In this document: piece after piece, positions 862 through 21,669 of the stretch
Numbering within the stretch: the stretch's first letter is position 1
Layout: every line of letters begins with the position of its first letter
DNA from: Desulfocapsa sp.
GTDB lineage: Bacteria; Desulfobacterota; Desulfobulbia; Desulfobulbales; Desulfocapsaceae
NCBI GenBank assembly: GCA_013792135.1
Contig: VMSP01000012.1
Coordinates: 1 to 37,837, forward strand
Length of the DNA: 37,837 nucleotides
Direction: 5' to 3'
Program-made: the position numbers and the translations under genes
Notes under the pieces: generated by a model
Told to the model about the DNA's origin: nothing
What the model saw: only the letters and a program-made list of their open reading frames with translations
Databases searched by the model: none

Positions 862-3312
862 TTGTCACCTTCCGGACCAAAAAAGAATCAACTCAAACAG
901 TTTGAAACCATCCGCGGGGAACTGAAAAAGATTGTTCTCGATCAGGACAGCGCTATCGATGAGGTGGTGGACGCCTTTATTCATATGGACTTCCGTCCGC
1001 CCAAGGAGGCGGAGCCCAAGGCGATCTTCACCTTTCTCGGTCCGCCTGACGTGGGCAAGATCTATCTGGCCCGGGTGCTCTGCAGCATGCTCAAGGAGTA
1101 TAAGGGTTTTAAACATTTTGATCTGGAACGCTACAGCAATTCGGAAAGCGGCGACCTTCTCCTTGGCCCCCAGATGGTCGACCAGGAGAATGAGGAAGGC
1201 GAGCTGTTCCGGTTTCTCCGTGCCACTCCCCGTGCCATTATACTTTTTGAGTCCATTGAAATGGCGAGCAATCAGCTGCAGATGGCGCTGCTTGATCTGA
1301 TAACTAAAGATGAGCTGGAGAGCGGCATTAATTGCCGTGGGGTGATTTTTATCTTCACCTCCACCCTTGGTAGTACCCTTTATCAGGGCAAGGAATTTCA
1401 GGCAACCTTCCAGCACCGCAAGGCCCGAGCCCAAGGCTTGATCATGGATGCCATTGCCAAAGAAAAGAAGGTGGGAGACGAGACTGTCCAGGCGGCTATT
1501 GCCTCGAAGCTCCTGGCTACCCTGGCCCAGAATTATATCATTCTTTTTAATCGGCTGGGCATTAACGCCATGGTTCGCATCGGCACGGATTCCTTGTTGC
1601 AGCTGGCCGAACATTTTCGGGACAAGGGTATTGGACTCGATTTCCCCGATCTCAAGGGATTGGTTGCCCTCCTGGTTCTCTCCCTGGGGCCTGCGATCTC
1701 TGCGAAAAAGGTGAAGCAAAAGCTGCCTGACGAGGTACTCTTTAAGATAACCCGCAGTCTACGGAAATTGACCTCATCTCCAGCCCGGTTCGTCTTCAAG
1801 TTGACCAAGAAAGCCGAAGCCTCGCTGCACAGGCTCGCTGAGGCCGGAGATCAGCTTCTGCCTCAGCTCTACAAGAAGAACCAGACCGTGGAGCTGACCT
1901 GGAAGGAGTACCAGAGAGGGGAAAACCTTATCTTCAGCCTGGTCAGGGCAGAAACCCGTGCGCTTCCCAAGGGAAAAGGGCTGTTGCGGAATGAACGGCC
2001 TGCCATCGAATTTTCCGAGATTGGTTTTACAGATATTGCCGGCAACCGCCAGACTAAAACCATCTTGAAGCAGATCATCAATACCCTGAAAAAACCCGAG
2101 CTGGTGAAGAAGTTTTCCATCAGCATGCCCAAGGGAATGTTGTTGTACGGGCCGCCAGGGGTCGGAAAAACTCTGCTGGGTAAGGCCTTTGCCCGGGAGG
2201 CTGGCCGGCCCTACATCTACGTCTCCCGCACTGAGCTGTTTGACTCCGAGTATATCCGTCTGGTTTATCTCAAGGCACGTGAATACGCGCCCAGTATCGT
2301 TTTCCTGGATGGTATTGACGTCAAGGGGGTGATGGAAGGGGTGCTGGCCGGAGTGCCTGCCGATCAACTTGCTCTCGAGATTGACGCACTTTCCGACGAT
2401 CCGGAGGAGTCGGTGTTCACCGTGGTCACGGCGGTGAGTCGGGAGGAGGTGCCGGAGCTGCTCATCGAGCCTGAACGTATCGACACCTTTGTTGAGACGC
2501 CGGAGCTTGACCGGGAGGCGAGGCGTTTTTTCATCGAACAGATCCTCAAGAAACCCAACGACGGCAAGATCGATGTGGACAAGGTGGTCCGCTACATCTC
2601 CGGTATGAACGGCTATGAACTGCAGCGCATCGGTAAGGAGGCCTCACTCCATGCCATCCGTCACGGCCTCGCCTGCATCAGTGAAGAGATTCTCATCGAG
2701 CAGATCAATATCATCAAATACGGCTCAAAACTGGAGAAGAAGCATATCCGTAATCTGGAGGAAGACCTGCGTCAGACCGCCTTCCATGAGGCTGGCCATG
2801 CGGTGCTCTCCTACCTGTTGCTCCCGGATGTCAAAATCGAACAGGTCACCATTGCCCCGCGCCTGCGGACACTGGGGTTCATCTCCTACAGTTTTGAGGA
2901 TTTTCCCAGTAACCTTTCCAAGGAAGAGATGTTCAATAACATCTGTGTGCTAATGGCCGGAAGAATTGCCAGCATGAAAAAATTTGGCGCCAAGGGCATG
3001 GATACCGGGGCGGCCAGCGACCTTGAGGAGGCGACACATCAGGCCTATCTCGCCATTACCAACTTGGGTATGGACGAGGAGTTGGGTTTTGTCCATACCG
3101 ACACTCTGACCCACAACGTCAATCCTCAGTTTTTCCGGGAGGTGGTGGAGCGTCAGGTCCGTGTCTGGATCGACAAGGCTACCAAAAGGGCTGGTGAGCT
3201 GGTGGAAACCAACTGGCAGCAGATAGAGACCCTGGCCGCCATCCTGATCCGGCAGGAAATTGTCGATGGTGCTGAACTGGAACGGATCATGGACGAGAAA
3301 AGACGGGCGTGA
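862..3312 (+). CDS. FtsH-like M41 metalloprotease with an extra N-terminal ClpB-like AAA domain; ATPase motifs degenerate
   Basis: 816 residues. TTG start behind GAGGGAG (848-854). Residues about 20-210 resemble the second AAA domain of ClpA/ClpB, but its Walker A is GPPDVGKI (60-67, no Ser/Thr) and its Walker B acid pair is replaced (LFESIE). A second, FtsH-type AAA domain (about 385-600) has a good Walker A, GPPGVGKT (430-437), yet Walker B reads FLDGID (D483, G484 instead of Glu). The FVG pore-loop segment is missing and the arginine-finger segment is altered (EPERIDTF). The C-terminal M41 peptidase looks intact: HEAGH at 642-646 and a third zinc ligand D720, spaced 74 residues from the second His as in E. 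coli FtsH. No N-terminal membrane helices are seen, so it is probably cytoplasmic. Likely an unusual protease whose ATP hydrolysis is weak or lost. Confidence 0.85.
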   Translation: MSPSGPKKNQLKQFETIRGELKKIVLDQDSAIDEVVDAFIHMDFRPPKEAEPKAIFTFLGPPDVGKIYLARVLCSMLKEYKGFKHFDLERYSNSESGDLLLGPQMVDQENEEGELFRFLRATPRAIILFESIEMASNQLQMALLDLITKDELESGINCRGVIFIFTSTLGSTLYQGKEFQATFQHRKARAQGLIMDAIAKEKKVGDETVQAAIASKLLATLAQNYIILFNRLGINAMVRIGTDSLLQLAEHFRDKGIGLDFPDLKGLVALLVLSLGPAISAKKVKQKLPDEVLFKITRSLRKLTSSPARFVFKLTKKAEASLHRLAEAGDQLLPQLYKKNQTVELTWKEYQRGENLIFSLVRAETRALPKGKGLLRNERPAIEFSEIGFTDIAGNRQTKTILKQIINTLKKPELVKKFSISMPKGMLLYGPPGVGKTLLGKAFAREAGRPYIYVSRTELFDSEYIRLVYLKAREYAPSIVFLDGIDVKGVMEGVLAGVPADQLALEIDALSDDPEESVFTVVTAVSREEVPELLIEPERIDTFVETPELDREARRFFIEQILKKPNDGKIDVDKVVRYISGMNGYELQRIGKEASLHAIRHGLACISEEILIEQINIIKYGSKLEKKHIRNLEEDLRQTAFHEAGHAVLSYLLLPDVKIEQVTIAPRLRTLGFISYSFEDFPSNLSKEEMFNNICVLMAGRIASMKKFGAKGMDTGAASDLEEATHQAYLAITNLGMDEELGFVHTDTLTHNVNPQFFREVVERQVRVWIDKATKRAGELVETNWQQIETLAAILIRQEIVDGAELERIMDEKRRA

Positions 3313-19522: not shown

Positions 19523-21574
19523 ATGAAAAAAGATACTGTTTGTCGGATGTGTTCCTCCTGTTGCCCGGTGGAGGTGGAAGTCGTTGCCGGTAAACTGGTA
19601 TCGGCGCAACGTAAATCCTTCCTTAGCAAGGATTTACGCAGCCCCTGTCTGAAGTTGCAGGCGGTAGCGGATATTGTCTATTCCGACAAACGCCTCACCA
19701 CCCCGCTGATCAGAGAAAAGGATGGTGCCTTTCGCCAGGCAAGCTGGGATGAGGCTCTCGATCTGGTGGCGGAACGCTTCAAACACTACCAAGGGCAGGC
19801 CCGACCTGAGGCCGTAGGCTGGCTGCGGGGCATGGCCGCGGATTGGGGATCCCCCTGGGATTACGCTAACCGTTTGATGAATTGCTACGGCTCTCCCAAT
19901 ACCATCGGCAATGGCTCCATCTGCTTTGTGGCCCGGGAGATGGCCCACACCTATACCTATGGGGCCATGGCCTTTCCCGAGGCAGCCAAGGCCAAGTGCA
20001 TCCTGGTCTGGGGCAAGCATGACGCTGATACCACCCTGGGGGTGGCCGATGCCATCAACCATGCCACCAGCAATGGCGCCAAGCTCATTGTGGTGGATCC
20101 GATCCAGACCCCTCTGGCCCGCAAGGCCGACATCTGGCTGCAGATCAAACCAGGTCATGACGGCCTGCTGGCCATGGCCATGATCAATGAAATCATCACT
20201 CAGGATCTCATTGATCATGAATTTGTTGAGGGATTTACCACCGGCTTTGAGCAGCTTCGAGAGGTGGCCGGAAGATATGCCATCGATACCATCGCCCCCG
20301 GCATCTGGCTTGATCCGCAACAGGTGCGGGAGGCTGCCCGCCTCTACGCCACCATCAAGCCCGCCTGTCTGATTGATGGTAACGGCCTGGACATGCAGCT
20401 CGATATATTTCAGTCCACTCGTGCCGTGGCCTGTCTGCGCGGACTCACCGGTAATATTGACCGGTCCGGCGGTGATGTCCTGCCCCAACCGATCTCCTTG
20501 CGCCCTCTCCAGGCCCGCGACAGACTGCCTGTAGGCGTTACGCCGATCACCGCTGCCTACCCTCTTTTTAACAGCTTCAGCGAGACCTGGGGCAATCAGG
20601 TGCAATCCTGTGTGGTGGATGCCATTCTCGACCAGAAGCCGTATGGCCTGAAGATGCTGGTGGTCCAGGCCGGCAATCCGGTGGTGACCATGGCCGATTC
20701 CAGCCGGGCCCATCGTGCCATGCAGGAGCTGGAATTTCTGGTGGTCATTGATATGTTCATGACTAGAACCGCCGAGCTGGCCGATGTGATCCTGCCGGCC
20801 GCCGGTTGTTTTGAAAAGACGCAACTGAACCGGGCAGCCACCCGCAACAACCCGATCATCCTCCAGAATCAGGTCATCGAGGCCGTGGGGCAGTCGTGGC
20901 CTGACTGGAAGATCGTCTTTGAACTGGGGCGCCGGATCGGTCTGGAGCAGGAGTTCCCATGGCACAGCGCCGAAGCGGCCATTGATGATCAACTGGCACC
21001 AGCCGGTGTTACTGTTGAACGACTGCGGCAGGAGCCTGACGGAGTGCGGGTGGAAGGGCTGCGCCATGAAAAGTATCGGCAGGATGGTTTTGCCACCCCA
21101 TCCGGTAAATTTGAATTCTTCTCCCGCAGGCTCGAGGAAAACGGCCATGCCGGGCTGCCCTATGCTGACGGCTTTCCTGAAAAAGCCATCAGCTTTGCTG
21201 AGCAGCAGGATGATTTTCCCCTGATCGGGATCAGCGGCCGTCGCGATATCCGTTTCACCAACTCCCAGTACCGCATTATCCCCGCCCTGCTCAAGAATGA
21301 GGAGGGATGCGTGGTCGATATCCATCCTCTTGATGCGGCACAACAGCAGATTGAGGATGGCGACCAGCTGCAGATCACCACCCCGAAAGGAGCCATTACC
21401 ATGTCGGCCAGGGTGTCGCCGGTGGTCCACCCCGGCTCGGTTCGTATCGCCTGGGGCTGGGGCGATTACAAGGCTGACTGGAACCTCAATACCCTCACCG
21501 ATGATGAGGTCAGAAACCCCATCACCGGCACCCCGGGCCAGCGCACCTTTATGTGCCGGGTGAGCAAGGTCTGA
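19523..21574 (+). CDS. Cytoplasmic molybdopterin (Mo/W-bis-MGD) oxidoreductase with N-terminal 4Fe-4S site
   Basis: 683 residues. The N-terminal Fe-S motif is C7-x2-C10-x3-C14-x27-C42. A likely Mo/W-ligating Cys is C134 in GNGSICF. Cofactor-binding stretches include LVWGKHDADT, KLIVVDPIQTPLARKADIWL and, near the C-terminus, the molydopterin-dinucleotide domain (IRFTNSQYRI, GDQLQITTPKG, PGSVRIAWGWG). There is no TAT signal, so it acts in the cytoplasm. Overall layout matches the MopB family that includes acetylene hydratase and thiosulfate/polysulfide reductases; nearest subgroup cannot be decided by eye. No electron-transfer or membrane subunits are adjacent; only the zinc-ribbon methyltransferase lies upstream. 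A terminator follows. Confidence 0.88.
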   Translation: MKKDTVCRMCSSCCPVEVEVVAGKLVSAQRKSFLSKDLRSPCLKLQAVADIVYSDKRLTTPLIREKDGAFRQASWDEALDLVAERFKHYQGQARPEAVGWLRGMAADWGSPWDYANRLMNCYGSPNTIGNGSICFVAREMAHTYTYGAMAFPEAAKAKCILVWGKHDADTTLGVADAINHATSNGAKLIVVDPIQTPLARKADIWLQIKPGHDGLLAMAMINEIITQDLIDHEFVEGFTTGFEQLREVAGRYAIDTIAPGIWLDPQQVREAARLYATIKPACLIDGNGLDMQLDIFQSTRAVACLRGLTGNIDRSGGDVLPQPISLRPLQARDRLPVGVTPITAAYPLFNSFSETWGNQVQSCVVDAILDQKPYGLKMLVVQAGNPVVTMADSSRAHRAMQELEFLVVIDMFMTRTAELADVILPAAGCFEKTQLNRAATRNNPIILQNQVIEAVGQSWPDWKIVFELGRRIGLEQEFPWHSAEAAIDDQLAPAGVTVERLRQEPDGVRVEGLRHEKYRQDGFATPSGKFEFFSRRLEENGHAGLPYADGFPEKAISFAEQQDDFPLIGISGRRDIRFTNSQYRIIPALLKNEEGCVVDIHPLDAAQQQIEDGDQLQITTPKGAITMSARVSPVVHPGSVRIAWGWGDYKADWNLNTLTDDEVRNPITGTPGQRTFMCRVSKV

Positions 21575-21669
21575 GTGGCAAGCCATTTCAGCTTGCTCAA
21601 TGTTTTGGCGGACGATTGCTCTGTGTCGTAATGTTTTTTGTCACTTACTCAATGATATTTCAGCCGTTT

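Follow-up and report, generated by a model that had tools for sequence, protein, structure and literature searches.

The window, by which we mean the whole 37,837-nucleotide stretch of a Desulfocapsa sp. contig analyzed here, carries a gene (positions 862 to 3312, forward strand) for an 816-residue protein that is real, conserved, and unusual: two AAA+ domains with eroded ATPase motifs stand in front of an M41 zinc peptidase domain with an intact active site. The usual view of AAA+ proteases is that they must thread their substrates at the expense of ATP. Judged by its sequence and that of its relatives, this protein probably forms a soluble peptidase ring that does not depend on ATP hydrolysis, with the AAA parts serving as scaffold and not as motor. 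The family it belongs to is conserved and seems to have abandoned the motor, probably on more than one occasion, while retaining the protease.

Results

Domain layout and predicted fold

The open reading frame begins with TTG at 862. Relatives such as the closest named orthologue, from a Desulfocapsaceae bacterium (L007, 94% identity), begin at an ATG two codons upstream, a place where the window reads ATA CCC TTG (856 to 864); the gene starts either at the TTG or at an unusual ATA. Pfam assigns three domains to the 816-residue protein, all above the gathering scores: AAA_2 (PF07724, ClpA/ClpB D2-like) at residues 52 to 198 with 53 bits (threshold, 27), AAA at residues 426 to 547 with 75 bits, and Peptidase_M41 (PF01434) at residues 634 to 809 with 111.6 bits (threshold, 29.9). 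Two relatives of the ACT group introduced below score 99 and 117 bits with PF07724. By this test, and with the HExxH motif and the distal Asp ligand in place, the protein is an M41 peptidase. It is not an FtsH, failing on score, anchor, pore loop, and ATPase motifs alike: the NCBIfam FtsH equivalog TIGR01241 yields 211.9 bits against a curated cutoff of 600, and its N-terminal anchor, Walker B DE, FVG loop, and full pair of arginine fingers have no match here. The ClpB equivalog TIGR03346 likewise stays below its cutoff (56.3 bits against 1232) and aligns with residues 17 to 299 only.

AlphaFold2, run with 47 family rows, returned a mean pLDDT of 82 but a pTM of 0.48, which lends credence to the individual domain folds but not to how they are arranged. 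The predicted fold of residues 4 to 318 resembles Skd3 (7ttr; Z 23.1, rmsd 4.1 over 288 residues) and also ClpC and ClpB, and that of residues 380 to 811 resembles FtsH (2ce7; Z 27.9, rmsd 6.9 over 395 residues); further matches include 8xku and 8xqw. The extra ClpB-like domain that an earlier note had read from the letters alone is borne out by the AAA_2 and Skd3 matches. Its claim that membrane helices are absent also stands, with a maximal 19-residue mean hydropathy of 1.58 (at residue 257, inside the first AAA domain) against 1.76, 2.28, and 3.07 in three ordinary FtsH proteins of the same genome, although the gap to the lowest of these is small. Those three FtsH proteins (29 to 34% identity) and two weak matches to part of the first domain, probably Clp ATPases, are all that a search of the 4.2-Mb genome at E 0.001 recovered, with no further match and no paralogue of the P type described below.

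Eroded ATPase motifs and an intact zinc site

The ClpB/ClpA-D2-like domain with its small subdomain (D1) takes up residues 1 to 380 (862 to 2001). Its Walker A motif, GPPDVGKI (residues 60 to 67; 1039 to 1062), keeps the Gly and the Lys but has I67 in place of Ser/Thr, and its Walker B motif, IILFES (residues 126 to 131; 1237 to 1254), has E130-S131 in place of Asp-Glu. The earlier reading that D1 had lost the Walker A Ser/Thr and the Walker B acids therefore holds for the former and only partly for the latter, the first acid being conservatively changed to Glu and not simply lost. The D1 pore-loop stretch contains no aromatic residue.

In the FtsH-type AAA domain (D2, residues 385 to 620; 2014 to 2721), alignments with FtsH confirm an intact Walker A motif, GPPGVGKT (residues 430 to 437; 2149 to 2172), and a Walker B motif, IVFLDG (residues 479 to 484; 2296 to 2313), in which Gly replaces the catalytic Glu (D483-G484), both as originally described. 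The missing FVG pore loop corresponds to a six-residue gap in the FtsH pore loop 1 region, between D461 and S462 (2242 to 2247). The arginine-finger segment had been called rewritten; within this second region of homology, ELLIEPERIDTFV (residues 532 to 544; 2455 to 2493), it is the second finger that has gone, with T542 in its place, and the first, R539, is kept. Sensor 1 joins the list of losses, its Asn column (525) being occupied by Val. What D2 retains is the Walker A Lys-Thr, D483, D486, and R539. These losses are not chance, since they recur in orthologues under purifying selection.

The peptidase domain (residues 634 to 809; 2761 to 3288) preserves the zinc site HEAGH (residues 642 to 646; 2785 to 2799) and the third ligand D720 (3019 to 3021) at the FtsH spacing that had been claimed for them. 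Overall, the loss of ATP-driven unfolding with retention of the protease, as proposed in the earlier note, is well supported by the sequence.

A patchy family with graded erosion

In a collection of species genomes, one scan detected 72 loci of the family. Members occur in 7 of 395 genomes drawn from the window's phylum and in 38 of 397 drawn Campylobacterota, with two candidates scored per genome in both draws; the family is thus patchy in Desulfobacterota and Campylobacterota. Motifs were typed in 100 family rows, the window's own included, and in 16 ordinary FtsH controls. These counts leave out broken, stop-containing, or cut loci (L012, L022, L025, L036, L038, L039, L042, L071, L072, L077, and L078), second copies from the same genome (L079 to L090 except L086, and most of L108 to L173), the duplicates L204 and L205, and L230 and L233, which came to light later; among the rows counted, some (e.g., L032) are truncated by a contig end that lies outside the motifs. 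The rows fall into groups A (the window's close kin, 16 rows), B (other Desulfobulbales and others, 15), C1 (5), C2 (17), C3 (8), S (27), P (6), and ACT (6). The S type is a 448-residue Sulfurovum-type form with a single AAA domain and M41 but no D1; L060, among its 27 rows, is probably a C2 protein truncated close to the end of a contig. An origin of this short form by gene splitting was considered and rejected, no ClpB-like D1 gene being conspicuous among the recurrent neighbors (18 read by eye).

All 100 rows keep the Walker A Lys, and 94 keep the zinc ligands, the exceptions being the six P rows. FtsH pore loop 1 and the second arginine finger are absent throughout (100/100 each) and present in 16/16 controls, which keep all sites. 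Another residue takes the place of the Walker B Glu in 83 rows: Gly in A and B, Asp in C2 and S (where the motif reads ED, or KD in one row), and Ser, Gly, or Asn in C3. Full Walker B motifs are found in the other 17 (C1, P, and ACT) at the same alignment position, none of them shifted, and the erosion is therefore real and not a misalignment. All 16 group A rows, which represent the genus, combine Gly for this Glu with a residue other than Asn at sensor 1. The ACT proteins (n = 6) have Walker A and B intact in both AAA domains, the D2 sensor-1 Asn, and an intact zinc site. Since these Walker-intact proteins share the lack of pore loop 1 and of the second finger, both losses must be ancient, and on their own they are no sign of a dead ATPase. 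Ahead of the peptidase, the window protein bears a family signature, ILIEQINIIKYG (residues 610 to 621; 2689 to 2724); the stretch EQINIIKYG occurs there in 16/16 A, 14/15 B, 15/17 C2, and 26/27 S rows and varies in C1, C3, P, and ACT. Neither was seen in the FtsH rows shown.

In a tree computed with the motif columns removed and FtsH as the outgroup, the family forms one side of a branch (support 100), with ACT branching early, P as one clade, and A, B, C1, C2, C3, and S together as another. That both Walker motifs of both domains, as well as the zinc site, are intact in the early-branching members marks the eroded state as derived. The genome of L233 is a single contig and belongs to the window's phylum; in this protein D1 is eroded, D2 retains Walker B DE, and a 45-row tree places it beside A and B (support 94/92). 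A single clade of all Glu-lost rows is rejected for these 45 rows, L233 included, by a careful method (AU p = 0.014) but not for 81 rows without L233 by a quick one (p = 0.33). The rejection suggests repeated loss of the Walker B Glu while the protease was kept, a history that is likely rather than proven. The Desulfobacterota members, with a Candidatus Tharpella row among them, are nested within Campylobacterota diversity, which suggests transfer across phyla.

Gene neighborhoods

Clustering of the open reading frames of loci L001 and L007 to L078 yielded no common partner gene, and the surroundings of A, B, C2, and S are varied. The most widespread neighbor, found in 14 loci, is a 207-residue gene that by eye resembles uracil phosphoribosyltransferase. 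Upstream of the window gene, positions 157 to 501 encode a 114-residue protein that is hydrophobic over an N-terminal segment and has two pairs of Cys; open reading frames in L021 and L036 are related to it. Farther along the window, at 19523 to 21586, two open reading frames on opposite strands (683 residues, plus; 650 residues, minus) overlap almost fully.

Of the six ACT genomes, four were inspected (L221, L222, L223, and L224, in G601, G858, G560, and G831), and all four loci are compact gene clusters. In three the gene directly adjoins that of a DUF4062 protein, part of which is a STAND-like P-loop NTPase region, and in the fourth that of an ankyrin-repeat protein; one ACT operon encodes a TIR protein two genes away. 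Of five ACT-neighbor proteins given to PADLOC, a set without the TIR protein, four matched no family, and the ankyrin protein matched candidates through its repeats. Such surroundings point to an origin in conflict-type operons, and the clusters are possibly a defense module. Defense-family models match only parts of the window protein's AAA domains (e.g., IetA over residues 395 to 455), and IteA_antiphage reaches 48.7 bits against a cutoff of 510. No plasmid match was found at E 1e-60. Phage matches are FtsH-like only (residues 370 to 810, 29% identity) and come from 11 Pseudomonas phage records; these phages of about 285 kb carry FtsH-like matches of about 440 residues (e.g., LC727698.1, 147255 to 148565), annotated as ftsH, cell division protein, or hypothetical.

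Mirror-image paralogues and a possible partner

The ring independent of ATP hydrolysis is the most likely reading. Next comes one that we regard as rather unlikely, in which the window protein would provide the proteolysis in a mixed ring or a stacked complex and an ATPase-competent partner would unfold substrates and feed it. Candidates for the partner would be a P-type paralogue in Sulfurovum and, in the window genome, an ordinary FtsH or a Clp ATPase, either of which could supply power in trans. The P proteins speak in its favor. In all six, Walker A, Walker B DE, and the sensor-1 Asn of D2 are intact, and all carry aromatic residues at the D1 pore-loop position (GWKGY or GWSGY), which corresponds to the pore loop of ClpB D2. 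Their zinc sites are broken (YEAGR, YEAGH, KEAAH, or REAAH), the first His being gone in 6/6 and the second also in three. In Sulfurovum sp. AR (G429), an 874-residue P protein with intact GPPGTGKT, IIFIDEID, AATN, and RPGR and the zinc site YEAGR coexists with an S protein that has Walker B ED, no arginine fingers, and an intact HEAAH. A protease-intact S accompanies P in five of the six P genomes, whereas none of the six ACT genomes contains one (one-sided Fisher, 0.008); this co-occurrence is inflated because five of the six P proteins came from searching S-bearing genomes. Such a pattern would suit a machine divided between two proteins in Sulfurovum. The accessible text on Arabidopsis FtsH12 and FtsHi discusses just such a split, with FtsH12 as the protease unit and FtsHi as the ATPase (PMC6460958).

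Several observations weigh against a partner nonetheless. The window genome has no P type. P is present in only 5 of the 27 genomes that yielded S-type loci and absent from 22 at E 1e-60, and G769 has a P, with no S found in its assembly. In G429 the two genes lie on different contigs, and the D1 Walker B Glu of P is itself replaced by Ser or Ala in 6/6. Co-occurrence in the draw of 397 Campylobacterota (0.04) was rejected as support, the only genome with both being G429, the center of the draw; among the other 396, one has P, seven have S, and none has both. A gene for 124 to 125 residues lies just upstream of P in 3/3 loci (L218, 4538 to 4912; L219, 8157 to 8531; L220, 7708 to 8085), and the one copy tested, that of L218, matches Pfam NikA-like.

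Possible residual ATPase activity

It is improbable that ATP is still hydrolyzed, slowly and with altered residues. The intact Walker A of D2 may allow nucleotide binding and some odd hydrolysis; besides the Lys-Thr, D483, D486, and R539 are kept, C1 and L233 retain the Walker B Glu, and the Walker-intact members also do without the second finger, so that one finger may suffice in this family. The weight against it is that the Walker B Glu and the sensor-1 Asn have both gone in 16/16 rows of the genus.

Selection and gene presence in the genus

In six pairwise comparisons of four close genes, dN/dS is 0.06 to 0.12 for the whole gene, 0.09 to 0.15 for D1, 0.03 to 0.07 for the eroded D2 AAA domain, and 0.03 to 0.12 for M41: the AAA domain is held as tightly as the peptidase, and purifying selection on it within the genus is strong. 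The gene is expendable in the genus. Seven of its 17 genomes, the window's own included, have a full or contig-cut copy and seven have none, three of the latter (G003, G005, and G009) being 91 to 99% complete; the copy is frame broken in two (G002 and G015), and in G004 it is divided between contig ends and a second, partial copy exists. Frames also break in L022 (6301 to 6480) and L078, and L025 contains a stop. Despite these absences and breaks, it is very improbable that the gene is on its way out, with ATPase and function both being lost, given the low whole-gene dN/dS and the same losses common to old lineages.

A programmed frameshift was also considered for L036 (7201 to 7460) and L039 (7201 to 7520), which break at the same GGCC-rich spot just after the D2 Walker A motif. 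L036 has an inverted-repeat-like replacement, L039 loses one GGCC unit, and L038 only ends at a contig edge; because the breaks differ, we read them as mutations or assembly errors and not as a programmed site. In L042 (1 to 2098), a partial second copy of the peptidase part follows the first copy, and the small genes between them look by eye like what is presumably a toxin-antitoxin pair.

Discussion

Our preferred reading is that in this cytoplasmic zinc peptidase, the two AAA+ domains would no longer act as motors. They would hold the chains in a ring and carry the peptidase sites in a chamber. With the Walker A Lys-Thr and D483 still in place, the ring perhaps contains bound nucleotide. 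Its substrates would either be unfolded or small, or be passed on by other chaperones, and cutting would therefore be zinc dependent with no ATP hydrolysis by this chain. The earlier note had likewise suggested unfolded or small substrates, or nucleotide used only for assembly, and both suggestions remain inferences. The Walker B ED of S and C2, which is a swap rather than a plain loss, counts against a motor-less ring.

The family may have a longer history, which we put forward tentatively. It could have begun as an ATP-fueled machine of Campylobacterota, whose intact forms, in the genomes examined, sit in conflict-type operons with TIR, STAND-like, or ankyrin proteins, and then have split its activities: several lineages, the window's included, would independently have lost the ATPase to become ATP-free proteolytic rings, and one Sulfurovum lineage would have lost the protease to provide the motor in a reciprocal machine made of two proteins. 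Protease-dead subunits derived from FtsH are known from chloroplasts. The opposite direction, ATPase eroded and protease intact, is without report in the open-access literature searched, in which we found no description of this architecture or of such an FtsH relative; coverage was partial, and this is weak evidence of novelty. As intact, half-eroded, and mirror-image relatives all exist, the role of an AAA ring when static becomes testable, as does the parting of motor and protease into two proteins.

Among known systems, the second AAA domain of ClpB, ClpA, and Skd3 is the counterpart of D1, from which it differs in that the nucleotide motifs and pore loop of the window protein are eroded; the rest of ClpB is unmatched. 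The FtsH ternary conflict systems also have two AAA domains per chain, the first inactive, but there both are FtsH-type, the second is active, and the partners are MoxR and vWA proteins; the term M41 is absent from the accessible text (eLife 2020, PMC7159879). For Campylobacter jejuni, the accessible part of an account of its proteases names one FtsH, Cj1116c (PMC9953165). FtsH and the i-AAA and m-AAA proteases (MEROPS M41) share the order of AAA and M41, the zinc-site spacing, and the fold (2ce7) with the window protein. The latter has no membrane helix and no FVG pore loop, carries an extra ClpB-like AAA domain in front, and has lost the second finger together with the Walker B Glu and the sensor-1 Asn. 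The motor complex of Arabidopsis FtsHi, FtsH12, and Ycf2 comes close in another way, with FtsH relatives that have lost one activity assembled in one complex; the fold matches to 8xku and 8xqw are a further point of resemblance. In FtsHi, however, it is the HExxH motif that is altered, according to the accessible text (PMC6460958), which makes these proteins the mirror image of the window protein and likens them instead to the P types of Sulfurovum.
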